64,000 bases of DNA from Methanolobus sp. ZRKC5 (GTDB taxonomy: Archaea > Halobacteriota > Methanosarcinia > Methanosarcinales > Methanosarcinaceae). Location: assembly GCF_038446525.1 (NCBI RefSeq), contig NZ_CP151792.1, positions 1-64,000 of the forward strand, written 5' to 3'. This document shows, in pieces, positions 14,164 to 56,799 of this stretch. The notes below the pieces were generated by a model. The model had not been told where the DNA came from, searched no databases, and saw nothing but the letters and a program-made list of their open reading frames with translations. The stretch's first letter is position 1. The number at the start of each line of letters is the position of its first letter. The translations under genes and the position numbers were made by a program.

Positions 14164-14940
14164 TTAAACATAATTTCCTTTAAGGCTTACAAATTTTAAA
14201 GTAAATTCTCCATCCGATGTCAAAATATACTCTTTCTCCTTTTTGCTGCCTTCTACATGCCTTTCATCAATTAAATTCCAGTTGAGAAGATCCCTTGTCA
14301 GTGAATTGAATACACCATCTTTTAGTTCTCGGTTTGCCCTTTTCTTATCTCTTATCGGAATATATTCTTTTGAAAGCTTTTCAAACAGCTTTTTTCGGGA
14401 TAATGTTTTCAAATTCTCATCACCTAAGGGTTTTTGTTTGTCCAAGATATTCAATACGGTTACTCTGTTTGGATTTGCCTGAAAATCTTCAATGTGGACC
14501 TTTGGAATTGATATCTTTTTAGCTCTTTCTTCTATATCTACATGGTAAGGTATTGCTTCAAACCACAATGCCATCATAAAAAGACCAATTGATAATGCTT
14601 TAGTTCCGCTGGATACATTAAAATAATATTGAGCATCGGGTTTATTCTTATATATTTCAAAGACAGCATCCTTGATATAGTCAAGAGTATCATCTTCTAT
14701 AACTATCTCATGAACTCCTTTTTTTGCTATTTTTGTACCAAGCTCTTTTAGTTCTTCTATAGACTTTCTGATCGCTTCTCTTGCCTCCTGTCTATTTGGG
14801 ATATCAGAATTTTCATAGATTCTTTTTTCTGCAATGACATAGACTTCGGATGCAGGTGCGATTTCATAAATAGCTGTTCTAAATGTGTTATGCACATTTG
14901 CACCAGCGCTCATTATGTGAATCTTTTCTTTACTTTTCAT
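14164..14940 (-). CDS. CARF-domain wHTH regulator (HFX_2341/DUF6293-like)
   Basis: A 258-residue protein. The N-terminal Rossmann-like half (residues 5-150) opens with the strand KIHIMSAGANVHNTF and contains YYFNVSSGTKALSIGLFMMAL, the ligand-loop motif N-x-(S/T)-x-G-T-K of CARF domains. The C-terminal half (about 155-258) is a winged helix (LSRKKLFEKL ... LLNWNLIDE ... YILTSDGEF). CARF domains bind cyclic oligoadenylates or similar signals, and CARF-wHTH proteins are transcription regulators. It is divergent from the viperin gene with a perfect 32-bp palindrome between them, the obvious operator. No CRISPR locus is in the window, so its signal source is unknown. Confidence 0.82.
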   Translation of the reverse strand: MKSKEKIHIMSAGANVHNTFRTAIYEIAPASEVYVIAEKRIYENSDIPNRQEAREAIRKSIEELKELGTKIAKKGVHEIVIEDDTLDYIKDAVFEIYKNKPDAQYYFNVSSGTKALSIGLFMMALWFEAIPYHVDIEERAKKISIPKVHIEDFQANPNRVTVLNILDKQKPLGDENLKTLSRKKLFEKLSKEYIPIRDKKRANRELKDGVFNSLTRDLLNWNLIDERHVEGSKKEKEYILTSDGEFTLKFVSLKGNYV

Positions 14941-14973
14941 ATTCTGGCTCTTTGTGTTTGATTAAAATTAGTT

Positions 14974-15005
14974 TATTATTTAATAAATCTATTTATTAAA
15001 TAATA
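14974..15005. promoter_or_regulatory. Perfect 32-bp palindrome, probable operator of the CARF regulator
   Basis: Two perfect 15-base arms (TATTATTTAATAAAT and its complement) separated by CT lie between the divergent CARF-wHTH and viperin genes. The site is 33 bases from the regulator start and 47 from the viperin start. It is just upstream of the viperin TATA-like TTATTATATTTT (about 15018-15030). This fits a dimeric wHTH protein controlling both genes. Confidence 0.7.
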
Positions 15006-15052
15006 GGTAAATCTAAAAAATTATTATATTTTCTGAAACGGATTTTCATCCG

Positions 15053-15883
15053 ATGACAAGCAAAGCAATCAGATCCGTAAACTGGCATGTGACCATGAAC
15101 TGCAACTACAAGTGCAGGTTTTGTTTCTACAAGAGCATGAGTGGGGAATTCAAAGACATCGAAAAAGCCAGACAGAAACTTGAAACTTTAAAGGCAAAAG
15201 GAATTGAAAAAATCAACTTTGCTGGTGGAGAGCCTCTGTTATACAAAAACCTAAACCACCTTTTGAAGATGGCAAAGGATATGGGGTTCACAGTTAGTAT
15301 TGTTACAAATGCAGCTCTACTCAGTGAAAATAAACTCAGGGAAATGAGTAAGTATGTGGACTGGGTGGGAATATCTGTCGACTCTGCCGATGAACATATC
15401 GAAAAACAACTTGGAAGGGGAAACGGAAGTCATGTGGAACATATCCGTAAGGTCTGCAAGCTTATCCGTGAGAACGGAATGAAGCTGAAGATCAACTCCA
15501 CCATCACCAAAATGAACAACTTTGAGGATATGAAACCGTTCATATCATCTCTGGCTCCGGACAGATGGAAGATATTTCAGATACTATCCATGGAAGGTCA
15601 GAATGATGATGCTTTTGACCTTACCCTAACCAGTGAAGAGTTTGACATCTTCAGGAGTATAAATGGTGGGTTGATACTTAACAATGGTTCCAGTCCAACT
15701 TTTGAATCTGCAGAAGATATGCTTAATTCCTACTTCATAATAGGTCCGGATGGGGATATTCTCTTAAGTAAGGGCAATAAGCGCTCTACAATTCCATTTG
15801 AATCACTGGAAAATATGGAACTTACTGATCTTGTCGATGCAGACAAGTACCTGGAAAGAGGTGGTAACTATGACTGGAACTAA
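15053..15883 (+). CDS. Prokaryotic viperin, radical SAM 3'-deoxy-3',4'-didehydronucleotide synthase
   Basis: A 276-residue radical SAM enzyme. The cluster motif is MNCNYKCRFCFY (Cys17, Cys21, Cys24), and the SAM-binding GGEP box stands in KINFAGGEPLL, both viperin hallmarks. The C-terminus ends in ERGGNYDWN, matching the RGGxYxW tail that shapes the nucleotide pocket in viperins. Prokaryotic viperins convert CTP, GTP or UTP to 3'-deoxy-3',4'-didehydro forms that stop phage RNA synthesis. No ribosome site is present; a TATA-like element about 30 bases upstream suggests a leaderless message. It overlaps the broken kinase gene by 14 bases. A CARF-wHTH regulator is divergent, which suggests induction by a nucleotide second messenger. 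Confidence 0.9.
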   Translation: MTSKAIRSVNWHVTMNCNYKCRFCFYKSMSGEFKDIEKARQKLETLKAKGIEKINFAGGEPLLYKNLNHLLKMAKDMGFTVSIVTNAALLSENKLREMSKYVDWVGISVDSADEHIEKQLGRGNGSHVEHIRKVCKLIRENGMKLKINSTITKMNNFEDMKPFISSLAPDRWKIFQILSMEGQNDDAFDLTLTSEEFDIFRSINGGLILNNGSSPTFESAEDMLNSYFIIGPDGDILLSKGNKRSTIPFESLENMELTDLVDADKYLERGGNYDWN

Positions 15884-16250
15884 ACCAGTCTTTTCTTTTT
15901 CAGACTCCTCTCAGGATGATCTGAATCCTCTTCGAAGGATCTGCTTTACCGGAGTAAGGGGTGTTGGGAAATCGACTGTAATGGAAGAGATCGATGTGAT
16001 ATTCACCCATATGGATTACGAGTTCTATACGGACATAATACTGCTTGATTCTTATCCTGAACGCATCCAGGATCACAGGCAAAGGGATACTAAGAAGAAA
16101 TGAATCACTGGCCTGGAAGTTATCCGAAGGGAACTTGATTTTGAAAGGCAGAAAGCTGCAGATATCTCAGAAAAGTATGGAATAAGACTTCATGTAGTTG
16201 AGATGGGCGAAGATGCTGCTGAAAAGTTGAAAAACATTCTCCTAAGATGA
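15870..16250 (+). pseudogene. Broken nucleotide kinase partner of viperin
   Basis: The frame begins inside the viperin 3' end and carries a P-loop, GVRGVGKST, near residue 29. It then jumps almost at once to a LID-like segment, LLDSYPERIQDHRQRD. The roughly 80-100 residues a thymidylate/cytidylate-type kinase should have between these are missing. An in-frame TGA (16101-16103) then interrupts KKK-TGA-ITGLEVIRREL, after which the same frame continues to 16250 (IRLHVVEMGEDAAEKL). Nucleotide kinases are commonly linked to prokaryotic viperins, probably to supply the triphosphate. This copy has both an internal deletion and a stop and is almost certainly dead. Confidence 0.7.
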
Positions 16251-16309
16251 TTAAGTCATTAGTTTGTTTTTAAACAAATATAATTAAATAATTAGACAGT
16301 GTTTATTGT

Positions 16310-19300
16310 ATGGATTTACAGGGAATGTTGGAAATGCAATTTGAGAAAAATGTAGTTGAGTATTTTTTATGGGAATCTTATAACATCGATTCAAGAAAGC
16401 ATTTGTACACAATTATCAATAAAGCAGACGATGATAGTCGCAAAGAGATTGGTAAGCATCGTATTCTTCAAAACATGTTTCTTCTTAGAAGAGGAAGAGA
16501 TCCAGGATTTTCTTTACATGTTTATGATATAATAAAAAAAGATGTAAATGCTATCCAAAATACTGCTCTTTACATCCAGAAATTATTGTTGGATGGTTCA
16601 TATTACGATGTAAACAAAATATTCAATCCTTATTCATCGATTAATAATCAGGAAAAGAAAAAAATTGTAGATAAGGATTTGAAACACACATTTCGCCTTC
16701 CTATTGTCTTTGAAGAACGTGGGGATGGGCTTTTTAATATTAAACAAGAGGATTTTCTTGAAGAATATTCCCAAATGCACATGAGAAGCCTAAATGAAAG
16801 TATTGAATATTTCAATCAACGATATGAAATTGCTCTTGAAACCAAAGATGATCAAGCAGCAAATGCTATTCGTGATGTAATGCAGGAATATCAAACAAGT
16901 CATTTCGATCTTGATTACTTTTCAAGGAAGGGGGAGTTTTATTGGGATTCAGATACTGAAAAAAAAGAAAATTTTGAATTTCTAAAATATTTATCGGAAA
17001 ATATTGCAAACTCTGAATATTACAGTTCAAATCCGGCAAATGCAGAATGGCAATTAGCAATCAATATTTTGACTTTGGGTTTTGAAGAAAAACTGATAAA
17101 AATATTGGCCGATTATGACATTGGAATAGTTGATGAATTATCTGAGCTAAAAATTTCATTAATGTACATCAAGTTTTTAGCGGATGCATTTTCAATCACC
17201 TCTGTAATATGGTTCAACTCTCTGTCTTTGAAAGAAAAGCAACAACTATTGAATGGTACATATACATTAGACAGCCAGAAATTAACTGATTATCTTGCTA
17301 CTTTCACTCAGAAAAATAGAACGATTCTGTCTTTGGAGCTATTTGCAGATAGAATGTACTTGAATAAATTTTTTGATGTTGCTGAAACTACATATGCATT
17401 TTTAAATGAAAATACTGAAGATGACTACAAAAAAGCAGGATACCTTAGTAAATTAGGTGACATCAATAGAGATAAAATGGAATTTGAAAAGGCATATTCT
17501 GCATATGAGGAACTATTTGATTTTTCATCTAAAACGCTTAGAGTCAATAAAAGGAAAAGAAAGGGAGGTAGAAAAACTTTTGAACAATACGAAAATCCTC
17601 GTATTGTAACTACGTTATCACTGCTGAGAATGGCAGAAATGGATTTTCTGCTTGGTAATGGTGATGCTGAAGATCACATTAACAATGCTAGAGAAAGAAT
17701 TGAAAGAGCTAACAAAGCTGAAAAGTTAAGCTTGATGTGGAATCTTGCTTGCACATATAGAAGAACTGAACAGTTTGATTGGGAATATGAATGTTTGCAT
17801 GATATTGTTTCTTTAGGAGAAAATAAAAGAAATGATCTTGTAGATAAAGCGGAAGAACGAATAACTCAAATTGATAAGTACTTTTCATGGACTGCAGAAA
17901 AACTAGATGATAAAAAGTTGCGTGAAGAAGAACAAAACAAAAACCACTATAGGCTTGCAGCAATTGCAGAATCTCTAAGAAATTCATTCCAATTTGAACG
18001 TGAAGCCGAATATCTGAATATGGCACTAAAGATTAAAGAAAATGAGCAGATTAAATTAAATCTTGCTATTTCTAAATATAATCAAAGTAATTTTTCAGAA
18101 GCAAAAAAAGATTTTATCAAATTGATATTATCCTCTGAAAAAAAGATAGTTACTCAATCATACCTTTACTTAGCTTCCATTGATTTCCAGCAAGACAACA
18201 ATCAGAAAGGTCTTGAAAATATTTTAAATGCAATTTTGCCTCTCATCAAGACTCTGAGTTCTATAGATAAGTGTAAGCAAGAAGTTGATGATATTGAACA
18301 GGAATTTACACTAGAAGAAGAAATTGAAGCAATTGAAATTCTCCCTCCAGCTATTAGGTTGTGCATTAATAACTTAATTCCCATAAAGAAATCGAATGTG
18401 CTTAAAGAAGTTTTAGATCATATTTTGGACTATAGCACTAAATTGTCCAAACCAAGCATTCATCATGACATCGTTTGTATTGCATGTGATGTCTTATTTA
18501 CTAAAGGGTTGGTAGAGGAGGCACTTCTTCTTTCTGAAAAGTCAATTGAACAGCTAAGTGCGGATAAAGGGTATAAGCTTTCAGCAAATGAATATACTGC
18601 TCATATGTATTTTGACTTGGGCATGCATGATAAGTCAATAAAATATCTAAGAGATGCACTTAATATTGATTCTCAATTCCCAGAGATATGGAAGAAGTTG
18701 GGCTTAAATTATGAGCAGTTATTAGACTTCAAGAATGCTGAAAAGTCAATCGATAAAGCAATGGAAATAGAAACTGACTATCCCGGTCTTGAAAAGCTTA
18801 AAGAAAAATACAATCATTTAAAGAAAGACACAATTAATTTTAATAAAATTAAAGATGGCGATGTTAAAAAATTCTTTATGAGTGCAGAGCGTCTAGTGTT
18901 GGATATTCCTAAGTCAGTTAATGAGGATGAATTTGATTTTACAATAGCTTTGGTAAGTTATGGAAAAGGGGTGGAAAGCCTTCTTCACAAAAAAGTTTCT
19001 ATAAATTTGAGGAAAAAAATTCACAAAAAACATGGATTCCCAATCCCTGGTGATCTTTTCAGGAATTTACCTGCTAGTTTGAAAAATATTCTTGGAAAAA
19101 AAGATATGACTATAACTTTAGGGTCTTGGCCATACGTCTTTGATGATTGCAAAAAGTACAGCTTTAACCCAATCGCAGAAGAGGCAAATAATTATTTTTT
19201 GGCTAGATTTAACAAGAAAAAAAATATAGTATTCGAATCATGCAAAACAGTTTCAAATTATAGGAATGGTTCAGCGCATTATACATCTAAAGCAATGGAT

Positions 19301-19366
19301 GAAATAATGAAAGATCGAAAAATCATTGTTGAACAAGTAAATAATCTCATTGATGTATTCTATTGA
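16310..19366 (+). CDS. Large TPR-repeat protein with C-terminal HEPN-like domain
   Basis: A 1018-residue helical protein. TPR-like repeats are visible around 375-470 and 540-640 and most clearly at 720-830 (GYKLSANEYTAHMYFDLGMHDK..., FPEIWKKLGLNYEQLLDFKN). The last 160 residues contain VSNYRNGSAHYTSK, an R-x4-H motif (about Arg985, His990) of the kind found in HEPN ribonucleases. HEPN proteins usually act as toxins or RNA-cutting effectors, so abortive defence is plausible. The N-terminal 350 residues match nothing I recognise. It follows the viperin/kinase locus by 59 bases and appears leaderless, so it may belong to the same defence module or be a separate system. Confidence 0.6.
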   Translation: MDLQGMLEMQFEKNVVEYFLWESYNIDSRKHLYTIINKADDDSRKEIGKHRILQNMFLLRRGRDPGFSLHVYDIIKKDVNAIQNTALYIQKLLLDGSYYDVNKIFNPYSSINNQEKKKIVDKDLKHTFRLPIVFEERGDGLFNIKQEDFLEEYSQMHMRSLNESIEYFNQRYEIALETKDDQAANAIRDVMQEYQTSHFDLDYFSRKGEFYWDSDTEKKENFEFLKYLSENIANSEYYSSNPANAEWQLAINILTLGFEEKLIKILADYDIGIVDELSELKISLMYIKFLADAFSITSVIWFNSLSLKEKQQLLNGTYTLDSQKLTDYLATFTQKNRTILSLELFADRMYLNKFFDVAETTYAFLNENTEDDYKKAGYLSKLGDINRDKMEFEKAYSAYEELFDFSSKTLRVNKRKRKGGRKTFEQYENPRIVTTLSLLRMAEMDFLLGNGDAEDHINNARERIERANKAEKLSLMWNLACTYRRTEQFDWEYECLHDIVSLGENKRNDLVDKAEERITQIDKYFSWTAEKLDDKKLREEEQNKNHYRLAAIAESLRNSFQFEREAEYLNMALKIKENEQIKLNLAISKYNQSNFSEAKKDFIKLILSSEKKIVTQSYLYLASIDFQQDNNQKGLENILNAILPLIKTLSSIDKCKQEVDDIEQEFTLEEEIEAIEILPPAIRLCINNLIPIKKSNVLKEVLDHILDYSTKLSKPSIHHDIVCIACDVLFTKGLVEEALLLSEKSIEQLSADKGYKLSANEYTAHMYFDLGMHDKSIKYLRDALNIDSQFPEIWKKLGLNYEQLLDFKNAEKSIDKAMEIETDYPGLEKLKEKYNHLKKDTINFNKIKDGDVKKFFMSAERLVLDIPKSVNEDEFDFTIALVSYGKGVESLLHKKVSINLRKKIHKKHGFPIPGDLFRNLPASLKNILGKKDMTITLGSWPYVFDDCKKYSFNPIAEEANNYFLARFNKKKNIVFESCKTVSNYRNGSAHYTSKAMDEIMKDRKIIVEQVNNLIDVFY

Positions 19367-19421
19367 ATCATTGTTCATATCCAAAACAAGAAAGCAATAA
19401 TAAAATTCTCCATCAATTATC

Positions 19422-19958
19422 ATGACTAGTAAAATAAATGTTCCATTTCACACCAATATCCAATACAGGATTTACCTTGATATGGACAATGTAATCACCG
19501 ACTTTGATAATGCCTGCAACAGTATTTCTTCTGGACTTATCAAATTGCACAGTTCAGACAGAGATGAGTTCTGGAAGATAATCGAATCCCAGGAAATCAC
19601 TTTTTGGTCAGAGATGTCTTGGAAAGAAGATGGTAGAGAGCTTGTTGATTATCTACTGAATTACAATACAACAATCCTTTCAGCACATCCAAATCCTAAA
19701 AGAGGAAGCGTAGCAAAATTCAGCAGAAAAGGAAAATATGAATGGTTGGCCAGAGAGATTGGCAAGGACTTTGCAGATAAAGCTATTATCTGCAGGCGTT
19801 CAGATAAAAAGATGTATTCTTCCACTAGTTGTATTCTTATAGACGATAATACTCAAAATATTAAAAGTTGGGAAGAAGCAGGTGGAATCGGCATCTTGCA
19901 TTTTGCTACTGAAAATACAATTGATAAATTAGAGCAGTTATTAGTAGATATGGATTAG
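19422..19958 (+). CDS. HAD-family 5'-nucleotidase-like protein
   Basis: The 178-residue protein has the HAD motif I DMDNVITDF near residue 20, with Asp nucleophile and acid. Motif II is in TTILSAHPNP and motif IV in CILIDDNTQNIKSWEEAGG. The layout resembles the small 5'(3')-deoxyribonucleotidases (NT5C type). It would hydrolyse a nucleotide or phosphosugar. Its place next to viperin and TPR-HEPN genes makes a part in nucleotide-based defence possible, for example clearing modified nucleotides, but this is inference. Confidence 0.72.
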   Translation: MTSKINVPFHTNIQYRIYLDMDNVITDFDNACNSISSGLIKLHSSDRDEFWKIIESQEITFWSEMSWKEDGRELVDYLLNYNTTILSAHPNPKRGSVAKFSRKGKYEWLAREIGKDFADKAIICRRSDKKMYSSTSCILIDDNTQNIKSWEEAGGIGILHFATENTIDKLEQLLVDMD

Positions 19959-20228
19959 CTTTCCTGAAAGATAAGAACAGGAAACGATTTGGTAGTAGGG
20001 GGCTGAAGATGGTATCTTTCACCATTTAGGAAGGCATATGGCTATGTAAAGAGATTAATGGAGTATTTTAGTTTATTTTTCACAGTAATAATAGGATATA
20101 CCGCCTAAGTGATTGATTTCACTATTTTTAGCTAAGCAGACATGGTTGAAGGGTATATTTCATTATTTTTTCTAATTAGCCTTGATGCTTTTTTAGCTCT
20201 AATCAATATACAAAGAAATGACGTATAT

Positions 20229-23200
20229 TTAAAAATCAAAGAGGGATTTTTGAGCATCAATTGCAGAGTTTTTTATTGCGGCTTGAATAGAGTTTTCCAC
20301 ACTGGATGGTACTGGCATCGACAGTTGCTTGAATATCTTTAAGGTTATCTTTTCACCGAGCAGCTTGGCTACTTGCTCAAAAGAACAAGCTTTTAATGTT
20401 TCAACAGACCTGACATGATTTGTATATAGTAACCTAGCTCTTTTTCTTCCTACATTCTTTATTTTAAGGAGCTCAACAAGTTCAGGACCTGCCCCATATT
20501 CCAAACGAGTATCAAGTCCATTAAAAGGGATATCATATTCTCGAAGAGCGGCAATTCGATTGATTGCAGAAGCAATTCTTGCTGCGCCACTGGATAGATT
20601 ATGAAGGTCTCCTTCACCGGTAGAGTATTTTTCAACAATGACTTCAGTATCAACTTCATTTATCCAGTCTTTTAAGATTAAGGTATTCTTTAATGATTCA
20701 AGATAAGATTGATATTCATAAGAAAGATCAGCATGCTCATCTGGGGGAAAGATAATGTCTTCTTTGATCTTTAGGGCAATGCATGAATACTCTGCCAATT
20801 CATTGTTCTTTATGTAAACAGGTCTAATTTCATCGGTTATACATATTAATTGGAGTAAAGAGAGAGTTGTTAATTTCATGTTTGATTGCTTTGCATATTC
20901 CAATTTTTCAGTGATAATTGCTGCAGCCAGTGGATTAATATACATCCGGGAAATCAATAGTCCAAGCTTGGTAGGCATGTGAAGATTGTTTTCATTTGTT
21001 ATCATTTCATGATTTTGAAGGAATTCGATACACGAACAGATACTTTCGATAAATTCATTATCATCGCCGGTATGTGCAGAGAATGTTCTTAGGAAGAATT
21101 CAATGATACCTTGTTGTGATATCGATGAACTACTGCTTATGATTCCGAGTACATGACTGCGTAGAATTGATTCATCACGTAGGTATGAATCGATATCTTC
21201 TGCTGTTGCGAAGATATATTTTTCTTTTAGTTCATCTATATCGCCAGCTTCTTTAGCAAGAAGTAGAGAAAAACCTTCTGGATCTAAATGTGGTCGGCCT
21301 GCTCTTCCTACCATTTGTTTATATTCAAGAACAGGAATAGGAACCATACCCCATTCTGGATTAAAACGGGAATAATTTCGAATTATAACCTTTCGTGCTG
21401 GAAGATTTATACCCGCTGCTAAGGTTGGTGTACAGGAAATTACCTGGATCAAGTTGTTCTTGAATCCTTCTTCTACAAGTTTTCTCTGAGTGGCATTAAG
21501 ACCGGCATGATGATATGCGGAACCGTTACGAATACAGTCTGCAAGGATTTTTGCTTCACCGGTATTACTTGACAGTTCAACCTCATCGGCAATTACAGCG
21601 AGTTCTTTCTTGGTATCACTATCTAACAACGCATTTATTGCTCTTTGTTCCTGATTCTTAATATTTGAGAATCTCTTAGCAAAGCCTGCACAATTTCTTC
21701 GACTACTTTCAAAGACAAGACATTGAGCTCCTTGCTCTATTGTATCAAGGACAATATTTGCACTAATGTCCTTTGTATCATGCTTTATTTTTTCTTGGTG
21801 AAGATTTTCTCCGGTAAAGAAGTTCATTGCTTTGCCGATTGCAATTCCTTCATTCAGTATTGTTGGTCGCCATTCACTGACAACAAGTTCAGCATCTAAC
21901 CATTCTGCAAGAACCTCAGCATTTCCAATTGTGGCAGAAAGAGAGACTATCTGTAGGTTTGGGATACTCCTTAGCTTTGTGATAACAATATCTACGGTAG
22001 GACCTCTTAGAGAATCTCCCAGGAGATGGACTTCATCCACAACAACAATGGATAAGTCTTGTAGCCACGTTGTACCATTGCGAAGCATTGAGTCTGTTTT
22101 CTCAGAAGTACAAACGATGATATCATTCTTGCCGAGTTGTTCGCTTTTTGACTCAAGTTCTCCGGTAGAGATTCCCGTCTTTATGCCTAGTGATTCGAAT
22201 TCCTTGAATCTTTCATACTTCTCACTTGCAAGGGCTCTTAGAGGAACAATGTAGAGGGCTTTGCCGCCATTAAGAACATGTTTGAGCATAGCAAGCTCTG
22301 CAACCAGTGTTTTCCCACATGCTGTTGGAATGGCTGCAAGGATATTATTTCCTTCCAAAAGACCTTTGTTTACTATCTCACTTTGGGGAGGATACAATTC
22401 TTCAATACCGGCACTCGTGTAGATATCAATTGCTTCTCTGGGAAGAGAAAGAGAATCTATTCTAATTCTGTGTGTCTCTTGTAAAACCTTAGGAAGAGTA
22501 ATTGTTGGAATTTCCTCAGTTATAAGAGTAAATGCCTGCTGAAATTCATTTACTTTAGTTCGAGACTCATGTATTTCTTTTCTCTTGAAGTGATCGAGTA
22601 GCATTTTCTTAGTAGTGAGCAAATGGGTAAAATCACAGTACTTTTGGCAGGTATTGTTTAAGATTACAGCATATATTACATTAGAAATGATACTTTCTTC
22701 ATCAAATGAAGATTTTTCAAAATATAGGTAGTTTTCAATGATTGAGACATCAATAAAAATAACAGGAATCTTATGTTTATTATATAACTGTCTTTTTTCA
22801 AGACCTATATCAGGAGTTGAGATAATCTCAATTGCAGCTATTATCTTGTTATTATTCCAGATAGAAATATCTGGAACAATATTTGAGTATGGTTTCTCTA
22901 ATTCAATAGCTGTTGCATTGTTCAACATGTCAAAAGTATAAGAGTCAGAAGTTCGGATCCCATCTTTTTGTTCAAGAGGATAAGGAATTCTGTTGTAGTA
23001 TTGATCAATATCGTATCGAGGGCATCTAAAATTGAAGATAAAGGATTCACCTGAATCTAATTTTGAGCTTAAAATGTCATAGACCTTCATTGTGGCATTT
23101 AGATGGATTATGGATTCTAGTGAATGTTCTTTTTCTCCACTTGCTTTATGGGCGAAATGCCATCTTCTCTTTGGGAAATCTTGCTTGTTCTTTGCAATTA

Positions 23201-23369
23201 CTTCTTTGTCACATAACAAACAGAAAAGCTCAGAAGCAGCTTCAGTTTCTTCTCTCTGGGTAATATACAGAACATCTCCGTTAGAATCACACGCATATTC
23301 CATTGGGATGTGCCGATTTGAAAACTTGAATGATTCGTTTATGTTTTGATGAATGAAGATCACCCCCAT
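20229..23369 (-). CDS. CoiA-like nuclease domain fused to a Hel308-type helicase
   Basis: A 1046-residue protein. Residues 1-230 look like CoiA: a CxxC zinc knuckle (FCLLCDKEV), the FPKRRWHFAH motif, ESIIHLNATMKVYDIL, and a nuclease-like core (ATAIELEK ... PDISIWNNNKIIAAIEI). From about 320 onward it is a Ski2/Hel308 helicase: Walker A AAIPTACGKT (about 350), DEVH (about 443), SLSAT, and GRAGRP motif VI. A winged helix, ratchet and final helix-hairpin-helix (LVELLKIKNVGRKRARLLY) follow. Normal Hel308 has no such N-terminus. CoiA-like nucleases act on recombination or transfer intermediates, so the fusion could unwind and cut foreign DNA. Monocistronic, surrounded by defence genes. Confidence 0.78.
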   Translation of the reverse strand: MGVIFIHQNINESFKFSNRHIPMEYACDSNGDVLYITQREETEAASELFCLLCDKEVIAKNKQDFPKRRWHFAHKASGEKEHSLESIIHLNATMKVYDILSSKLDSGESFIFNFRCPRYDIDQYYNRIPYPLEQKDGIRTSDSYTFDMLNNATAIELEKPYSNIVPDISIWNNNKIIAAIEIISTPDIGLEKRQLYNKHKIPVIFIDVSIIENYLYFEKSSFDEESIISNVIYAVILNNTCQKYCDFTHLLTTKKMLLDHFKRKEIHESRTKVNEFQQAFTLITEEIPTITLPKVLQETHRIRIDSLSLPREAIDIYTSAGIEELYPPQSEIVNKGLLEGNNILAAIPTACGKTLVAELAMLKHVLNGGKALYIVPLRALASEKYERFKEFESLGIKTGISTGELESKSEQLGKNDIIVCTSEKTDSMLRNGTTWLQDLSIVVVDEVHLLGDSLRGPTVDIVITKLRSIPNLQIVSLSATIGNAEVLAEWLDAELVVSEWRPTILNEGIAIGKAMNFFTGENLHQEKIKHDTKDISANIVLDTIEQGAQCLVFESSRRNCAGFAKRFSNIKNQEQRAINALLDSDTKKELAVIADEVELSSNTGEAKILADCIRNGSAYHHAGLNATQRKLVEEGFKNNLIQVISCTPTLAAGINLPARKVIIRNYSRFNPEWGMVPIPVLEYKQMVGRAGRPHLDPEGFSLLLAKEAGDIDELKEKYIFATAEDIDSYLRDESILRSHVLGIISSSSSISQQGIIEFFLRTFSAHTGDDNEFIESICSCIEFLQNHEMITNENNLHMPTKLGLLISRMYINPLAAAIITEKLEYAKQSNMKLTTLSLLQLICITDEIRPVYIKNNELAEYSCIALKIKEDIIFPPDEHADLSYEYQSYLESLKNTLILKDWINEVDTEVIVEKYSTGEGDLHNLSSGAARIASAINRIAALREYDIPFNGLDTRLEYGAGPELVELLKIKNVGRKRARLLYTNHVRSVETLKACSFEQVAKLLGEKITLKIFKQLSMPVPSSVENSIQAAIKNSAIDAQKSLFDF

Positions 23370-31211: not shown

Positions 31212-31808
31212 ATGAAGCTCGAAGAGAGATTGGAACTATTAAAGGATGAACTTCAAAAAGAGGATTTTTTACACGCAAGGGGTCTTGGCAACGAAGTTCC
31301 TTTCTGGATATTCGATTATCCTCCTGAAAAAGAACTACTTGTCCGAGATACCATCGCAAAGATAATACCGGCTTTAGAAAGAAAATCAATTACCGTCCTT
31401 GAGATCGATCTTTATGCTTTATGTCTTGAGATTATAGAAAAGAAAATACCAGCAGAAAAGATCAGTTCTTTTGAAAAGAGCAAAGGCTCTGATGAGTTGC
31501 TCAAAAAACTAAAGTTGATGTTAAAGCCAGACATTTTGAAAAACGCCATTCAGCAAAAAATGAATGATAATGATGGTTTCCAGCTAATCTTTTTGACGGG
31601 AGTTGGTAAAGCCTGGCCAATGGTTCGCTCTCACAGTGTTCTAAATAATTTGCAGCCACTCCTTGGCAACATACCACTTGTTACATTCTATCCCGGAAAG
31701 TACAGTGGGTTTGATCTTAGTTTATTCGGGAAATTCAGGGACGCAAATTATTACCGTGCTTTTAGGCTTATAAACACGGATAATGTTTCTCAAAGTAAAG
31801 GTTGTTGA
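31212..31808 (+). CDS. brxB: BREX protein BrxB (DUF1788)
   Basis: The 198-residue protein fits BrxB: KDELQKEDFLHARGLGNEVPFWIFDYPPEKEL at the N-terminus and FLTGVGKAWPMVRSHSVLNNLQPLLGNIPLVTFYPGKYSG at the C-terminus, the last being the family signature. BrxB is needed for BREX defence in type 1 systems; its exact biochemical role is not settled. It is the first gene of the operon here; brxA is not found before it. Confidence 0.9.
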   Translation: MKLEERLELLKDELQKEDFLHARGLGNEVPFWIFDYPPEKELLVRDTIAKIIPALERKSITVLEIDLYALCLEIIEKKIPAEKISSFEKSKGSDELLKKLKLMLKPDILKNAIQQKMNDNDGFQLIFLTGVGKAWPMVRSHSVLNNLQPLLGNIPLVTFYPGKYSGFDLSLFGKFRDANYYRAFRLINTDNVSQSKGC

Positions 31809-31812
31809 GTTA

Positions 31813-34800
31813 ATGACGAATGAGATTGAAATACAAGACCTCTTCCTGAAAGACATCAAAAGAGAGATCAATGGTGTTATTAAAGTCGATCAGGAAGACG
31901 ATGAGAATATCTATACTGAACTTGATGAATATGTGGTCACTAAAGAATCACTGAAGCATCTGGACCTTTTCTTTGAGAGATACTTCAATGCTACAGAAAC
32001 GCCGACAGATAAAGTTGGTGTATGGGTATCTGGTTTCTTTGGCTCAGGTAAATCCCATTTCATCAAGATGTTGTCCTATCTTCTGGAGAACAGGGTCGTT
32101 AGGGGCAAATCTGCCTTGGAGTTCTTCAGGGAGAAAATAGATGATCAACAGTTATTTGCTACCATTGAAAAAGCTGTTAATAATGGTACAAAAGACGTTA
32201 TTCTTTTCAACATTGACTCTAAAGCTAACACCCTTACTCGAAGCGATGAACTCATTGTTAATATACTGATGAGGGTTTTCAATGAGAAACGAGGTTTTTT
32301 CGGTGATGTTCTTTGGATCGCTGAAATGGAAGAAGATCTGACCAACAAAGGTCTCTATGAGAAGTTTAAGGATGAGTTCAAGCAAATAAATGGTGAACCC
32401 TGGGAAGAGAAACGGGATACCTATGCTTTTGAGACGGATGACATTATAGATGCTCTTGTCAAATGTGAGTATCAGAGCAGTGACTCTCTTGTTGGATTGT
32501 TCAATACTGATGGCAGTAACTATCATTTCAGCAATGAGAAATTTGCGGAGAAGGTGAAGAAGTACTGCGATTCAAAGGGTAAGGACCATCAGATAATCTT
32601 CCTTATTGATGAGGTTGGTCAGTATATTGGCGAAAATAGTGAGTTGATGCTGAACCTGCAGACCATTGTTGAAGAACTTGGAACGAAGCTTGCGGGAAAG
32701 GCGTGGGTTGTTGTTACATCTCAGGCTGACATTGATACGGTCACGAAAGACCAGGTCAAAGGATATGACTTCTCCAAGATCCAGGGGCGTTTTGATACAC
32801 GTTTGAGCCTGTCCAGTGCTAATGTGGATGAGGTCATCAAGAAGAGGATCCTGGCAAAGAAACAGGTGTATGTGGAGTCTTTGACATCTTATTATACGGA
32901 CAAGAAGACGATAATGAAAAACCTGTTGACCTTCTCTCCAGGTGGAGCTGAGATGAAGCTGTACAAGGGAGATGAGGACTTTGTTAATGTGTATCCCTTT
33001 GTACCATATCAGTTCCATGTGCTGCAGAAGGTATTTGATAAAATAAGGCAGACAGGTTTTACAGGAAAACACCTTGCAAAGGGTGAACGTTCCATGCTCA
33101 GTGCTTTTAAGGAGGGAACCGAAAAGTATGCTGAGAACGAGCTCGGTGTACTGGTGCCTTTTTCTACATTCTATAACACGATAGAAAGTTTCCTTGATCC
33201 TATCATTACACGTACCATTGAACAGGCAAAGGATAATGGTTGCCTTGAGGATGGAGATTGTAATATCCTGAAGATACTTTTTATGATAAGGCATGTGAAT
33301 GTGCTGCAACCGAGTCTGGATAACCTTGTGGTGCTTTCGATATCTCATGTTGATGAAGATAAAAGGAAGTTGAAAGACAGGATATCTGCATCACTCCAGC
33401 GTCTGGAGGCACAGACCCTTATTCACAAGTCCGGTGACAGATATTATTTCCTTACCAATGAGGAACAGGAGATAAACCGGGAGATAAAGAACATCGATAT
33501 TGAGAAGCACAGGATACTTGATGAGATGTTCTCTTACATTTTTGATGATATATGTCCTGCTAAGTACATGGACTATAAGTTCCACAAGTCTATTGATGAT
33601 AAGACCAAACCTACTAGTAGTGCAGACCTGACCATCAAGTTCCTGACGCCTCTGTCTGATGATGTATTGAGAGGAAGTGGACAGAGGTCGTTAAGCGGAG
33701 ATAACTTAAGCAATGTGGATTCCACTGATACTCTTCTTTTTGTATTCCCGCAGGATGCTGAATTTGTTAACCAGATACGGAATTACTTGCGGATAAACAA
33801 ATACCTCACACAGAATACATCTAATACGAATATTGGAGAGGTAAGGGAAATCCTCAGTGCAAAGAGGGGTGATGAGGAAAAGCTTCGGGTAGCTTCGAAG
33901 AAGTCTATGGAGGATGGAGTTTCCGAGGCCAGGATATTCGTTGATGGGAAGGAAGTCACAAGCATCGAGAAGACGAATCCTAAAGAAAGGATCAAGGATG
34001 GTCTGGACCTGCTCTTTGAGAACGTTTACAAAAAGTCCGGTTATGTTACCAAGGATATTGTAAGTGACAGTGAGATCCTGAGGATACTCCAGGCAGATGA
34101 CCTTGAGAAGTTCGGTGTTGGGACGTCTGAAACTAACCAGCTTGCTCTTCGGGAAATACTGGAACATTTGAATGTAAAGAATCAGAAGAATGATGTTGTT
34201 GTGCTGCAGGATATCAAGGATAGATTCAGGCGCAAACCATTTGGATGGAATGAAATTACTATCTCGGGTCTTGTGGCTACGCTGTTTGCAAAGGATGAGA
34301 TAAAACTCAGGTACCAGAAAACATACCTGATCCTTAAAAAACCAACTGCTGAAGAGATCGTGAGATATCTGATACGAAAAGAATATGCAGACAAACTTGT
34401 GCTTGAGATAAGGGAAAAGGCAAACGTTGAAGTTATCAAGACTGTCAGGTCGGTTCTGAGGGATGTGTTCGAGAAAACTAATATTCCTGAGAAGGAGAAT
34501 GATCTTTTTGATTTCACGCGTTCCCTGTTCAATGATGAGTACAATAAGATCGAAATAATTGAAGGAAGGTATGTGGAGGAGCCAAGATTCCCTGGTAAAG
34601 AGGGGATAAGAGGATATGCGTCCTTCCTTAAGAGTATCCTGAACGTAACTGACCCTTCATCATTCCTTCAAAATGTTGCTGATGAAAAGGATGAACTAGT
34701 ACGATTGCGTGAAGAGGTGGACCCTGTTACCTCTTTCTTTGGAAGCACTAAGGTGGAGATTTTCAGAAGGGTTTTGAAGAAGGTCGAGAATTTTAGGAGG

Positions 34801-35370
34801 GACCTGCAATTCATGGACGAGGGAACAAAGTCCAAGGTGCAGGAAATTGCAGTCATTCTTGAATCAGAGGATACTTATTCTGATATCAAGTTACTCCCAC
34901 CACTGGAGAATGAAATTGAAAGTTTCCTTTCAGAAACTCTTTCTGAGCTTAAGGAAGAGACTTTCAAAGATATAGGAACTATCACGGTCGAGCTGGAAAA
35001 GGAGATGGTGGCACATCCCGAGTTCACTCAGGTGTTCATGGATTCCGTGCTGCAACCATTCTCTGATATCAAGAAACGTATCTCACAAGCCGGAGACTGT
35101 GTGTTCGTACAGGCACAATCCACTACATTGGATTCTCTTGAAAGCCAGGCCTATGATAAGATCAGCAAGCAATTACAGATTATCAAGGAACCTGAAGCAG
35201 GTTCAGATGAGGTTGTTGTTCCTGTGCGGTCTACAAGAGTAATTAAGGATACTTCGGTTTTCAAGTCAAAGGATACGATCAAAACCGAAGAGGAGCTTGA
35301 CAAATACCTCAAAGAACTGCGTGCATCCCTGCTAAAGATACTTAATGAAAACGATATCAGGTTGTTCTGA
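31813..35370 (+). CDS. brxC: BREX ATPase BrxC
   Basis: A 1185-residue P-loop ATPase from the ATG four bases after brxB stops; an earlier in-frame ATG lies inside brxB. Walker A is GFFGSGKSHF at about residues 74-83 and Walker B is IIFLIDEVGQYIG near 260. Long helical and winged regions follow, as in BrxC/PglY. BrxC is required for both methylation and exclusion in BREX, probably by moving on DNA or forming the machine that contacts PglX and PglZ. Gene and length fit type 1. It is tightly coupled to pglX (two-base gap). Confidence 0.93.
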   Translation: MTNEIEIQDLFLKDIKREINGVIKVDQEDDENIYTELDEYVVTKESLKHLDLFFERYFNATETPTDKVGVWVSGFFGSGKSHFIKMLSYLLENRVVRGKSALEFFREKIDDQQLFATIEKAVNNGTKDVILFNIDSKANTLTRSDELIVNILMRVFNEKRGFFGDVLWIAEMEEDLTNKGLYEKFKDEFKQINGEPWEEKRDTYAFETDDIIDALVKCEYQSSDSLVGLFNTDGSNYHFSNEKFAEKVKKYCDSKGKDHQIIFLIDEVGQYIGENSELMLNLQTIVEELGTKLAGKAWVVVTSQADIDTVTKDQVKGYDFSKIQGRFDTRLSLSSANVDEVIKKRILAKKQVYVESLTSYYTDKKTIMKNLLTFSPGGAEMKLYKGDEDFVNVYPFVPYQFHVLQKVFDKIRQTGFTGKHLAKGERSMLSAFKEGTEKYAENELGVLVPFSTFYNTIESFLDPIITRTIEQAKDNGCLEDGDCNILKILFMIRHVNVLQPSLDNLVVLSISHVDEDKRKLKDRISASLQRLEAQTLIHKSGDRYYFLTNEEQEINREIKNIDIEKHRILDEMFSYIFDDICPAKYMDYKFHKSIDDKTKPTSSADLTIKFLTPLSDDVLRGSGQRSLSGDNLSNVDSTDTLLFVFPQDAEFVNQIRNYLRINKYLTQNTSNTNIGEVREILSAKRGDEEKLRVASKKSMEDGVSEARIFVDGKEVTSIEKTNPKERIKDGLDLLFENVYKKSGYVTKDIVSDSEILRILQADDLEKFGVGTSETNQLALREILEHLNVKNQKNDVVVLQDIKDRFRRKPFGWNEITISGLVATLFAKDEIKLRYQKTYLILKKPTAEEIVRYLIRKEYADKLVLEIREKANVEVIKTVRSVLRDVFEKTNIPEKENDLFDFTRSLFNDEYNKIEIIEGRYVEEPRFPGKEGIRGYASFLKSILNVTDPSSFLQNVADEKDELVRLREEVDPVTSFFGSTKVEIFRRVLKKVENFRRDLQFMDEGTKSKVQEIAVILESEDTYSDIKLLPPLENEIESFLSETLSELKEETFKDIGTITVELEKEMVAHPEFTQVFMDSVLQPFSDIKKRISQAGDCVFVQAQSTTLDSLESQAYDKISKQLQIIKEPEAGSDEVVVPVRSTRVIKDTSVFKSKDTIKTEEELDKYLKELRASLLKILNENDIRLF

Positions 35371-35372
35371 TC

Positions 35373-37217
35373 ATGGATAAGGCAAGCATCATCAAATTCT
35401 CGGACACTGTGCGGGATAAGCTCAACCAGGAAGTAAAGGACAGAGCTGCATTCTATGGAATCCTTCCGAAAGAGATCCTTCCTGTGGATTCCGAGCATTC
35501 AGATTCTATTGTTATCGGTGGCAAGGTCTTCAACAGGAAGATAAAGGAACAGAGAGAGCATCTGGTCAAGGATGTAAATCACAAGGGCTATGAACAGGTG
35601 ATGGATGAGGTAACCTATACCTGGTTCAACCGTTTTGTTGCTCTGAAGTTCATGGAAGTCAACGATTACATTCCAGTGAAGGTGTTCACTTCGGATGGTG
35701 CTGAGAGGACCGAGCCGGGAATTATTACACATGCCCTTGAACTGGATTTTCTGGACCTGGACTCTGACCATGTGCTTGATATGAAGGCTGAGAATGAGGA
35801 TGAAGAGTTGTACAAGTATCTGATACTGCGGTTGTGCAATTACCTGAACCGAACCATGCCTTTCATGTTCGAGAAGATTGAGGATTATACCGAGCTTCTG
35901 TTTCCTGAAAACTTACTGCATATTGATTCCATTGTGAAGGATATCAATGAGATAATTCCTGAGGACGATTGGAGGGAAGTTGAGATAATCGGCTGGGTAT
36001 ACCAGGATTATATCGCTCCCAGAAAGGATGAGGTTTTCAAGAAGCTGAAGAAGAATGTTAAGATCAGCAAGGAGAATATCCCAGCAGCGACACAGTTGTT
36101 CACACCTCACTGGATTGTCCGTTCTCTGGTGGAGAACTCATTGGGTCGTTTGTGGATGCTCAACCGTCCAAACTCCAGGCTGTTCGAGCAGATGGAATAT
36201 TACATCAAACCGGAACAATCTGAAACAGATTTCCTGAGAATCAATTCTCCAGAGGACATCAAGGTATGCGACCCTGCCTGCGGTTCGGGACATATGCTAG
36301 TCTATGCCTTTGACCTGCTGTATGCTATCTACGAAGAGGAGGGTTATGATCATTCAGAGATTCCTGAGATGATTCTCACCCACAATCTCTATGGCATTGA
36401 GATAGACGAGCGTGCTGGAGAGCTGGCGGCTTTTGCGCTTACCATGAAGGCAAGGAGAAAGAACCGCAAGTTCTTCCAGAATCCTGTTCATCCCAATATA
36501 TGCGTGCTGGAGAGTGTGGCATTTGAAGATGATGAGCTTCGTTCATATTTAGCAGCCATTGGAAGTAATTTACTAACAACCAACATGCAAGATACTCTGA
36601 ACCAGTTCAGAGAAGCTGATAATTTTGGTTCTCTTATCCGTCCAATTACCACAAATATATCAGAGATCCGGCAAATGCTAAAAGAGAAGAACCTTTCAAG
36701 TAATCTAACTGTCTTCAGCACTCACCAAAAGGTTCTGCAGGCACTTCAACAAGCTGATTACCTTAGTCCAAAGTATCATATTGTGGTTGCAAATCCACCA
36801 TATATGGGCGGTAAGGGAATGAACACAAGACTGAAGGATTTTGCAAAGGACAATTATCCCAACAGTAAATCTGATTTCTTTGCTATGTTCATTGACCGTA
36901 ACCTAGACCTTGCGATGCAGAAAGGAATGGTTGCGATGATAACCATGCAGAGCTGGATGTTCCTTTCTTCCTATGAAAAACTCCGGGCGAGCATTCTGGA
37001 CGACCGTACCATACTGTCCATGGCACATTTGGGACCACGGGCTTTTGATAGTATTGGTGGAGAGGTTGTTTCTACTACTGCTTTTGTTATTGAGAATGTG
37101 CAGCACCCTGAGTATAAAGGAGCTTATATCCGGCTTGTGGATGGAAATAGTGAAGCTGAGAAAGATGCAGGGTTACGTGAGGCAGTCATGCAAGCCCGAA
37201 ATATTGGAACAATCTAA
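35373..37217 (+). CDS. pglX: BREX methyltransferase PglX, N-terminal (catalytic) half
   Basis: A 614-residue adenine-N6 methyltransferase half. SAM motif I is DPACGSGHMLVYAFD at about residue 300 and catalytic motif IV NPPYMGGKG at about 473. Full PglX is usually about 1200 residues. Here it stops (TAA) after LREAVMQARNIGTI, and the target-recognition half restarts 13 bases later in another frame. PglX marks host DNA at a non-palindromic site and is needed for self/non-self discrimination. Either the enzyme works as two subunits or the gene is broken. The next gene has its own plausible start. Confidence 0.9.
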   Translation: MDKASIIKFSDTVRDKLNQEVKDRAAFYGILPKEILPVDSEHSDSIVIGGKVFNRKIKEQREHLVKDVNHKGYEQVMDEVTYTWFNRFVALKFMEVNDYIPVKVFTSDGAERTEPGIITHALELDFLDLDSDHVLDMKAENEDEELYKYLILRLCNYLNRTMPFMFEKIEDYTELLFPENLLHIDSIVKDINEIIPEDDWREVEIIGWVYQDYIAPRKDEVFKKLKKNVKISKENIPAATQLFTPHWIVRSLVENSLGRLWMLNRPNSRLFEQMEYYIKPEQSETDFLRINSPEDIKVCDPACGSGHMLVYAFDLLYAIYEEEGYDHSEIPEMILTHNLYGIEIDERAGELAAFALTMKARRKNRKFFQNPVHPNICVLESVAFEDDELRSYLAAIGSNLLTTNMQDTLNQFREADNFGSLIRPITTNISEIRQMLKEKNLSSNLTVFSTHQKVLQALQQADYLSPKYHIVVANPPYMGGKGMNTRLKDFAKDNYPNSKSDFFAMFIDRNLDLAMQKGMVAMITMQSWMFLSSYEKLRASILDDRTILSMAHLGPRAFDSIGGEVVSTTAFVIENVQHPEYKGAYIRLVDGNSEAEKDAGLREAVMQARNIGTI

Positions 37218-37230
37218 GAGGTAGCAAAAC

Positions 37231-38961
37231 ATGACCAATAACACTCCATCCACCACCACCGTCCCCAACTTCTACCGCGCCTCTGCGGCTGATTTTAAGA
37301 AAATTTCCGGAAGTCCGATTGCTTATTGGATTGGTGACTTCGTTCGAGAAGTTTTAAAAAAGAGTAGAAGTTTGGAAAAATATGCAAATCCAAAGAAGGG
37401 TCTAATTACTTTAAATGATGAATATTTTCTTCGTAGATGGACTGAAGTATCTTCTGAAAGAATAGGACTCAATCTGGTAAATAAGCAGGATGCTTCTGAA
37501 AACAGATTAAAATGGATTCCTATTACTAAAGGTGGACCATTTAGAAAATGGTATGGCAATAACGAATTTGTAATTAACTGGGAAGAAGATGGAAAAGAAC
37601 TAAAAGAATATATTGTTACTAAATACAATGGCGGCTCTTATACCAAAGAAATTCGAAGTGAAGATTATTACTTTATGCCAGGTCTTACTTGGAGTGGTAT
37701 TTCAAGTGGCTCCCCAGGTTTTAGAGTACTAGGAAATGGGTATATCATGTCATCTTCTGGGCCATGTTGTTTTCCAGAACAAGAAGATATCAACGATTTA
37801 TGTTCTTATTTGAACTCAAAAGTAGCAGTCTACTTCCTTAATATTTACTCCCAAAAGTTAAGTACACTATCTGGTGATATCGCGAAGTTGCCCATAACTG
37901 ATCAATATAATAAAAACGGCATTCATAAAGTATCAAAAATTTGTATTTCCTTATCTAAATCCGACTGGGACTCCTACGAAACATCCTGGGATTTTACAAT
38001 TCTTCTTCTTCTACAATCCAAATATCACCAACCAACCCTCCGTGAAACCTACACCAAGCTCCGAGCCCACTGGAAAAAAATGACACTGGAGATGCAACGG
38101 TTGGAAGAAGAGAACAACCGTATTTTCATCGAAGCCTACGGCTTGCAGGGTGAGCTTACACCTGATGTGCCACTTTCGGAAATTACGCTTACATGCAATC
38201 CGCATTATCGTTATAACGGGAATAAGAGTGAAAGTGAGCTTGAAATGTTGTTACAAACAGATACAATAAAGGAGTTCATCTCCTATGCTGTTGGATGCAT
38301 GTTCGGGCGTTATTCACTGGACAAGCCAGGTCTGGTTCTTGCAAATCAGGATGAGAAGATAGAAGATTATCTGGAACAAGTTCCGGAACCTAGCTTCATG
38401 CCGGATGCCGATAACATCATACCCATTCTCGAGGATGAGTACTTTGAGGATGACATTGTCAACCGCTTCAAGGAGTTCCTCAAGGTAACTTTTGGAGAGG
38501 ACACGCTTTCCGAGAATTTGGATTTCATTGCTGAGGCTCTGGGTGGTAATGGTAAGAAGTCCTCGGAGGCTGTGATAAGGGACTATTTCCTGAAATCGTT
38601 CTACAAGGACCATTTGAAGATGTACAAGAAAAGGCCAATCTACTGGATGTTCAGTTCAGGGAAAGGAAAGGCTTTCAATGGGCTCATTTACATGCACAGG
38701 TACAACAAGGAAACACTGGCTATGATGAGGACGGATTACTTGCTGGAACTTGAAGGGAAGCTGGATGCAAAGAGAGAGATGATACAGTCGGATATTGGGA
38801 AGGATGCTCAGGAGAAGGCTAGGCTTGGGAAGATGATCAAAGAGCTTATGGATTATGATGAGCTGCTGAAGAACAAAGCTGATGCGTATATCGAGATTGA
38901 TCTGGATGATGGTGTGAAGGTGAATTATGGGAATTTTGAGGGATTGGTGGAGAAAATATGA
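37231..38961 (+). CDS. BREX PglX, C-terminal (target-recognition) half as separate gene
   Basis: A 576-residue product beginning [25 protein letters not shown]. It continues SPIAYWIGD, the junction where intact PglX passes from the methyltransferase into the specificity part. Residues 60-270 are AT-rich in codon use and variable, as expected for a target-recognition domain. The rest (DFTILLLLQ ... [10 protein letters not shown] ... [15 protein letters not shown] ... [16 protein letters not shown]) is conserved PglX. A GAGGTAG box lies before the ATG, so translation on its own is possible. Stops in all linking frames exclude simple read-through. Confidence 0.88.
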
Positions 38962-38993
38962 TGGAATATGAATGACCCCTTGGGAGTTAAGAA

Positions 38994-40949: not shown

Positions 40950-40963
40950 TCATATTTTTGGAA

Positions 40964-40984
40964 ATATTATTTCGAAAATAATAT
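40964..40984. repeat. Perfect AT palindrome after the DUF262 gene
   Basis: ATATTATTT-CGA-AAATAATAT: nine-base perfect arms 15 bases after the DUF262 stop and 32 before pglZ. It could be a terminator-like hairpin or an operator for pglZ. It also marks the edge between the AT-rich inserted gene and the brx genes. Confidence 0.45.
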
Positions 40985-41015
40985 GACTTGTTAAATTAAT
41001 TATGGAAATCAAACC

Positions 41016-43628: not shown

Positions 43629-43654
43629 AACTGAACATACATTGAGCGGATATC

Positions 43655-53859: not shown

Positions 53860-55068
53860 TTAACAACTCCCTTCCCACATTTCCAATCTCTCCCTGACAT
53901 GAACATTAAGAGTAAATGGTTTATCAGCTTCAGCATTTTTCTTCATATAATGCAATGTACCCTTAGAAAAACCCATTTTATTCCATTCAGAATAACTGAT
54001 ACCCAAAATCTTTTTTCTGATCTCATCCGTATCCTGTCTCTTAATTTTGTAGGAAGGAGTTGTAAAATCTATCTTCCTCTTTTTACCATTCAGGAATTGA
54101 GCCAACTCTCTTGTTTTGAGTAAAAGAACATAACTCCACATCATTGATTTATCCTGATATGTAACTCTCTTATTCATCCAAGTCTGGAACTCCTCTGTAA
54201 GTTTCTTAGCTCCACTAGGTCTTAGCCTGAGAGAGTAATTATCAGTTCTGATGAAGTCCTTCTTCTCCATTTTGTCTGTCTCAATGAGGTTGATCACTGC
54301 CAGATCAACAAGGAATCTGAAAGGCTCTTGGAGATCATACGCTAAGCTGTTCTTACCTGTTGCCATCTCATGCAAAAAGCCTACATGAACATCCATACCA
54401 ACCGCATTGATAGTTCTCATACACTCAGCTTCAAGGAGAGAATAACCGTAATTGAGCATACAATTAACCATATCCCCTGCACCGTAAGGACGTGATTTGT
54501 ACCTTCCTGTACGATCATCAAATTCATATTTTTCAGGAATGAACTTTTCAAACTGTCCCCAGTAATAGACAGCAACAGCACCCTCTACTCCCATCACTTC
54601 TCTTATGTTATTTGCATTAGATAGCTTTGAAGAATATTTTGAAAAGTCGTTATCAATATCAGAATAACGTTGTTTAAGATAATCCAGAACTATCTGGGTT
54701 TTATCAAACTTGGCTTCAATAAAGCTCTTAGCAAGCTTTAACCTAGTTTCTTGATCCTCATAAGCGTGATACTGTGAGAACTTGGTTTTGACATTGGTAC
54801 TTTCAGGAGGAAGCATGGTTGTTAGTAACTTCCCATCCCAATCAAGAATAGATACTTGTACATTATGCTTGATCAACCAACGAATAGATTCTAGGGTTAG
54901 ATTTCCATTTCTACCATAGATCACTATATTGTCTATGTCTATTTTCTGAGGTGAGAAAACATAGACTTCTGGCTCTATGTCACTAGAATATCTACCATCT
55001 TTAACATGCAGTTTAGACCCATTTACACGCGTGTCTATACCGTGTCCATTGAGAAGTAGTAACTTCAT
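53860..55068 (-). CDS. cas1: Casposase: Cas1-family integrase
   Basis: A 402-residue Cas1 homologue. The N-terminal beta domain (1-85: LLLNGHGIDTRV, VYGRNGNLTLESIRWLIKHNVQVSILD-like) is followed by the helical catalytic domain with Glu162 (VMGVEGAVAVYYW), His233 (VGFLHEMATGKNSLAYD) and Asp245 (AYDLQEPFR). The extra 70 residues after the usual Cas1 end (RKKILGISYSEWNKMGFSKGTLHYMKK) form an HTH tail found in casposases and absent from most CRISPR Cas1 proteins. It inserts the element and makes 14-15-base target duplications. No Cas2, Cas4 or CRISPR array lies nearby. It ends the leftward operon with the HTH gene (two-base gap). Confidence 0.95.
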   Translation of the reverse strand: MKLLLLNGHGIDTRVNGSKLHVKDGRYSSDIEPEVYVFSPQKIDIDNIVIYGRNGNLTLESIRWLIKHNVQVSILDWDGKLLTTMLPPESTNVKTKFSQYHAYEDQETRLKLAKSFIEAKFDKTQIVLDYLKQRYSDIDNDFSKYSSKLSNANNIREVMGVEGAVAVYYWGQFEKFIPEKYEFDDRTGRYKSRPYGAGDMVNCMLNYGYSLLEAECMRTINAVGMDVHVGFLHEMATGKNSLAYDLQEPFRFLVDLAVINLIETDKMEKKDFIRTDNYSLRLRPSGAKKLTEEFQTWMNKRVTYQDKSMMWSYVLLLKTRELAQFLNGKKRKIDFTTPSYKIKRQDTDEIRKKILGISYSEWNKMGFSKGTLHYMKKNAEADKPFTLNVHVRERLEMWEGSC

Positions 55069-55070
55069 GT

Positions 55071-55949: not shown

Positions 55950-56011
55950 ACTCAATATTAATGTCATTGTGCATATAAATCTTCTCCTCATACTGTTTAT
56001 TTGTGAATACC

Positions 56012-56787: not shown

Positions 56788-56799
56788 GGAGTGGTAACT

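Follow-up and report, generated by a model that had tools for sequence, protein, structure and literature searches.

A likely CRISPR-independent CARF switch for viperin defence in Methanolobus, built from partly catalogued components

To our knowledge, how prokaryotic viperins are switched on is not known. CARF domains, for their part, have so far mainly been tied to the cyclic oligoadenylates (cOA) of type III CRISPR systems. In Methanolobus sp. ZRKC5, a viperin gene stands back to back with the gene of a CARF regulator across a perfect palindrome, which raises the question of whether this regulator governs the viperin and, if so, upon which signal. The reading favoured here, at a probability of roughly 0.62, is that of a ligand-gated CARF-wHTH switch acting on a viperin-TPR defence cassette via a clade-specific operator and independently of type III CRISPR in the host. 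The features concerned are as follows, with positions counted in the window, i.e. the whole stretch of 64,000 nucleotides that was analysed:

14164-14940, minus strand: CARF and winged-HTH regulator (REG), 258 aa (PADLOC PDLC02909, Pfam PF19810, AlphaFold2 model)
14974-15005, no strand: perfect 15+2+15 palindrome in the divergent promoter region, TATTATTTAATAAAT-CT-ATTTATTAAATAATA, 15/15 complementary
14981-14998, no strand: 18-bp palindrome core, probable operator, TAATAAATCTATTTATTA
15053-15883, plus strand: prokaryotic viperin (pVip), 276 aa (NF038283, PADLOC pVip, CX3CX2C/GGEP/K-x-N/RWK motifs)
15870-16250, plus strand: remnant of a viperin-associated nucleotide kinase (VakA) (PADLOC VakA model, comparison with intact kinases)
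16310-19366, plus strand: TPR-repeat protein, 1018 aa, with C-terminal RNGSAH (RX4H) (PADLOC TPR PDLC02907, 188 bits)
19422-19958, plus strand: HAD/5'-nucleotidase-like protein, 178 aa, optional downstream gene (DxDxV motif by eye only)

As regards the surroundings, the window also holds a 1046-aa protein adjoining the defence genes, in which an N-terminal extension is fused to a Hel308-like archaeal helicase (20229-23369), a BREX defence island with BrxC, an apparently split PglX-like methyltransferase (35373-38961), PglZ and BrxL (31783-45694), and a casposon-like block with a Cas1 without CRISPR, an HNH-like gene and a family-B DNA polymerase gene (53860-59757). A second full-length casposon-type Cas1 is found at 687847 of the genome, together with Cas1 fragments at 136522 and 238322.

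REG scores 348 bits against the PADLOC model PDLC02909, named Csa3, and passes Pfam PF19810 (HFX_2341_N, a CARF-type N-terminal domain) with 32.4 bits for a cutoff of 30. Its AlphaFold2 model (mean pLDDT 85.6) places a winged helix after a CARF domain of alternating alpha/beta structure; the best PDB fold matches returned by Foldseek are the CARF proteins Cdn1, Can2-cA4, Csa3-cA4, Csm6 and Card1, each with a probability of 1.00; compared by Foldseek with 6wxq, 6w11 and 2wte, the model exhibits the N-terminal CARF and C-terminal winged HTH of the Csa3 family. A sequence search of the PDB with REG gave nothing significant, and this placement is by fold search only. The phosphate-floor motif, FNVSSGTK, is located at residues 107-114 of REG; FN-x-[ST]-x-G is present in 26/26 aligned homologues, most of which keep the CARF floor motif FN-x-S-G-G-T-K. 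Neither motif 1 nor motif 2 of Csa3 is conserved in the REG family, where AG-x-(N/S)-(I/V)-H and FN-x-S-(S/G)-G-T-K stand instead.

On the other side of the palindrome, the viperin clears the cutoff of 180 of NCBIfam NF038283 with 248.6 bits, and the PADLOC pVip model gives it 263 bits. It aligns over its length with mouse viperin (6q2p), and the CX3CX2C radical-SAM motif, GGEP, K-x-N and RWK are invariant in the viperin alignment and common to the mouse protein. Profile scores, fold model and coordinates thus bear out the sequence-only reading, namely that a CARF domain (NVSSGTK) with a winged helix is divergent from a prokaryotic viperin. Of note, the same chromosome holds part of another viperin at 3014764-3014931 (L044:8765-8929), which matches residues 178-233 at 61% identity and has an internal stop.

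Whether this pair is an accident of one genome was addressed with 393 genomes drawn from the phylum, at a pVip threshold of E <= 1e-45. The REG family was found in 28/393 genomes and pVip in 26/393, and REG adjoins viperin in 20 of these 26 pVip genomes. Seen from the regulator, a viperin lies within 1.5 kb in 21 of 30 regulator loci taken from the draw, 19 of these 21 being divergent. Among the 27 REG-viperin loci examined in detail, from the draw and from elsewhere, 25 are divergent and two co-directional (L125 and L127), and they are spread over six archaeal families. The gene order is REG< VIP> (KIN>) (VIP2>) TPR> (NT>), the bracketed genes being optional, with the TPR gene in 19/27 loci and the HAD/5'-nucleotidase-like gene in 5/27. 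VIP2, a second, divergent viperin-like radical SAM gene, occurs in the operon of L033, L034, L035, L036, L048 and L120, mostly behind the kinase, and is absent from the window. Mobile carriage was rejected, as plasmid, phage and viral collections yielded no relatives. The survey of viperin neighbourhoods that had been proposed with the sequence-only reading therefore shows that both pair and dyad recur elsewhere, and the pair is more conserved than could be told at the time. Besides the viperin loci, there is one where a REG-family gene has a type I restriction-modification operon as its divergent neighbour (L136:6923-13152).

This last arrangement bears on the best-surviving alternative, in which the regulator would be a general defence regulator with interchangeable neighbours, viperin being one of several clients and no viperin-specific logic being at work. 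As the L136 regulator stands beside type I restriction-modification, the REG family may serve other defence systems, as BrxR does, and haloarchaeal members of the family are mostly without an adjacent viperin; against this, viperin adjoins the regulator in the 21 of 30 loci counted above, and the L136 intergenic region is without a significant dyad, the dyad search at the L136 and L137 regulators having found none significant. On balance, a general regulator indifferent to viperin appears rather unlikely.

If a ligand-gated switch does act on viperin, the candidate for its operator is the palindrome. When the 112-bp intergenic region was put through 2000 dinucleotide shuffles, no arm grew longer than 13, as against 15 in the actual sequence, and the palindrome at 14974-15005 is the sole one with arms of at least 11 in the 64-kb window; the perfect 32-bp (15+2+15) palindrome claimed from the letters is hence real, complementary at 15/15 positions and beyond all 2000 shuffles. 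Its 18-bp core, TAATAAAT-CT-ATTTATTA, is identical in five orthologous loci, namely the window, L033, L034 and L035 (Methanolobus clade A), and L118 from another, related genus, in all of which its centre lies 63-65 bp upstream of the viperin start. In clade A, the outer left arm drifts and the right arm is invariant, so that the window alone shows the full 32 bp in perfect symmetry, L034 coming close to it. In distant families, another dyad takes this place, GTTTC-N8/9-GAAAC, whose centre is 56-58 bp upstream of viperin (L051, L121-L124, L126 and L128; weaker in L129-L131). Summed over 14 representatives, dyad symmetry in this zone amounts to 102 matches vs. 89.4 +/- 2.9 for the null (maximum 98 in 300 shuffle sets); for L036-L038 (Methanolobus clade B) and L129-L134, any dyad is faint or escapes detection. 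That the place is kept while the dyad sequence changes by clade fits an operator which would track its regulator. The core is unique in the 3.05-Mb genome at up to one mismatch, which argues against a large regulon.

The same symmetry could alternatively stem from a bidirectional promoter with two TATA boxes set back to back, the regulator acting elsewhere or on itself only. The clade A arms, made up of AT only and at plausible TATA distances, with the right one invariant and the outer left one drifting, are compatible with such a promoter, but an arm of 15 is far beyond the shuffles and the GTTTC-N8/9-GAAAC dyad of distant families is not TATA-like, although its distance, 56-58 bp, is almost unchanged, which makes this explanation improbable. 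Should the clade A arms serve as TATA boxes all the same, this may fit repression by occlusion.

The genes downstream of viperin differ markedly in their state of preservation. Compared with L033, L034 and L038, the window kinase carries an internal, in-frame deletion of 219 nt and is interrupted by a TGA, likewise in frame, at 16101-16103; the intact kinase is about 200 aa long in L033-L035. The window locus is also a mosaic: positions 14171-15991 are about 80% identical to Methanolobus clade A, positions 16014-19385 (kinase 3' end and TPR gene) are 89.7% identical over 3375 nt to L038 of clade B, and positions 19448-19960 are 90% identical to clade A again. One junction falls inside the kinase, where the 219-nt deletion also lies. 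The window locus, with its broken kinase, is a product of recombination, and its mosaic nature indicates that the TPR module is exchangeable. TPR proteins have diverged to about 22-25% identity, REG and viperin being better conserved. Near the TPR C-terminus, the R, N, S and H of R-N-x-S-x-H are invariant in 7/7 aligned homologues, and RN-x3-H is kept in 15 of 19 TPR proteins; RX4-6H is a motif of HEPN ribonucleases. The model of the C-terminal domain is all-helical (pTM 0.81), with no significant match in a PDB structure search, and the TPR protein is at the motif level a putative HEPN-type effector or sensor. For the 178-aa HAD/5'-nucleotidase-like protein, family profile searches gave no significant match.

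Such a broken kinase, in a mosaic of two lineages which has lost the second viperin and with another viperin fragment elsewhere in the genome, could suggest that the window locus is a decaying remnant deprived of function. Yet regulator, viperin, TPR gene and palindrome are intact, and kinase-less loci are known beyond the window (e.g. L050, L121, L123 and L126), leaving only a slim chance to decay.

As for the signal, a cyclic-oligoadenylate trigger had been put forward from the sequence alone. The closed genome is without Cas10, and the sole SMODS-like match of a SMODS profile search (about 27 bits) is the CCA-adding enzyme, leaving no SMODS-type CBASS cyclase there. Cas10 is found in 3/20 pair-bearing genomes vs. 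66/373 others, i.e. without association. The proposed trigger thus failed to find support. As signal sources, Cas10 was rejected, being absent from this genome and unenriched with the pair, and so was SMODS-type CBASS, its matches having turned out to be the CCA-adding enzyme. That the locus would stand without any CRISPR holds for the 64-kb window and not for the chromosome, whose type I-B cas operon, devoid of Cas10, lies near 2.15 Mb together with an array of 23 repeats (2147536-2157562, L135; array near 2.156 Mb). We know of no type I CRISPR system that makes cyclic oligoadenylates. The Csa3 residues of motif 1 stack the adenines of cA4 (PMC8699464, PMC8844856). The least probable explanation of all is a cOA receptor, in which cA4 or cA6 made by type III CRISPR upon infection would bind the CARF domain and induce viperin: the REG fold is nearest to cA3-, cA4- and cA6-binding proteins, cOA-binding CARFs have a floor motif similar to its FN-x-S-G-G-T-K and Csa3 does bind cA4 (PMC8699464), but the closed genome has neither Cas10 nor a SMODS cyclase, Cas10 is missing from 17/20 pair-bearing genomes vs. 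307/373 others, and the adenine-binding motif 1 (G-F-N/D-E) is not conserved in the REG family.

Coming back to the ligand-gated switch on the viperin-TPR cassette, we infer DNA binding by the regulator, repression, a ligand and an antiviral role. The CARF-wHTH protein, probably as a dimer, would bind the dyad that separates its gene from the viperin operon, and would thereby control both divergent promoters. Since the dyad sits where archaeal TATA/BRE elements are expected, ligand-relieved repression is somewhat likelier than activation. Upon infection, a nucleotide-type ligand would enter the CARF pocket and change DNA binding, turning viperin on; the induced viperin would then produce chain-terminating ddh-nucleotides, with the TPR protein, plus the kinase, second viperin and nucleotidase where present, presumably acting together with it. 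In this host, the ligand would be other than a type III CRISPR product, the candidates being a cyclic or modified nucleotide of another kind, or feedback by what viperin itself produces. A more specific form of this proposal, tentative and at distinctly less than even odds, is that of a CARF-wHTH repressor reading a nucleotide alarm which comes from neither Cas10 nor a CD-NTase, perhaps viperin's ddh-nucleotide or an infection-altered nucleotide pool, and switching the viperin-TPR operon on or off via the clade-specific operator, that is a CRISPR- and CBASS-independent branch of CARF regulation.

A CRISPR-independent CARF switch for viperin defence, the components of which are partly catalogued, is thus the likely meaning of the locus. 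If a CARF switch conserved on viperin in genomes mostly without Cas10 proves true, either the CARF domain reads another alarm or viperin controls itself via its product, and a short DNA probe together with a single small protein would suffice to test both ideas.

Concerning known systems, the viperin of the window belongs to the pVip family, and its neighbours match the models named VakA, TPR and Csa3. In PADLOC-DB of 2023, the models pVip, TPR, Csa3 and VakA, all matching genes of the locus, are numbered together, from which it would seem that the curators saw the association of viperin with its neighbours. Membership of the PADLOC viperin-TPR system, i.e. a viperin beside a PDLC02907 TPR protein, is found at the window (188 bits). 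In the archaeal immunity survey of 2026, which cites Bernheim 2021, viperin-TPR is the only archaea-exclusive type, and Csa3 appears in the reference list only (PMC12988326). The window copy differs from pVip and viperin-TPR by its broken kinase, and its CARF regulator, operator and signal are in no paper that we found, the literature on viperin with CARF or Csa3 included. The view that no system of this form had been described stands therefore for the regulation and the ligand, and no longer for the parts, which are catalogued in the 2023 PADLOC-DB models and as viperin-TPR (PMC12988326).

With Csa3 of type I-A CRISPR, REG shares domain architecture, fold and palindromic promoter sites (PMC8699464, PMC8844856, PMC4333418). 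Csa3 proteins, which bind cA4, are tied to palindromes in cas promoters (PMC8699464, PMC8844856), and their signature comprises motif 1, T-h-G-F-(N/D)-E-x4-R, and motif 2, L-x2-G-h-R (PMC8699464). Unlike Csa3, REG has no significant PDB sequence match, does not conserve motif 1 and has G-T-K in place of G-h-R; it also stands away from a CRISPR locus (that of its own genome lying at 2.15 Mb, and its homologues lying beside viperin), in genomes most of which are without a cOA source. Purified Csa3a itself bound DNA without specificity and irrespective of cA4 (PMC8699464), so that the switch is unproven even for the model protein.

MM_0565 of Methanosarcina mazei, likened here by its description, is a CARF-wHTH protein with the architecture of REG and from the same archaeal family of hosts; it affects a casposon cas1-solo gene and, unlike REG, is linked to a type I-B CRISPR locus (PMC7465815). 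Finally, BrxR is not homologous to REG as a whole, its sensor being WYL instead of CARF and its distribution predominantly proteobacterial, but like REG it combines a wHTH and a ligand-sensing domain with inverted repeats, and it represses a defence cluster with several defence clients (PMC9122601).
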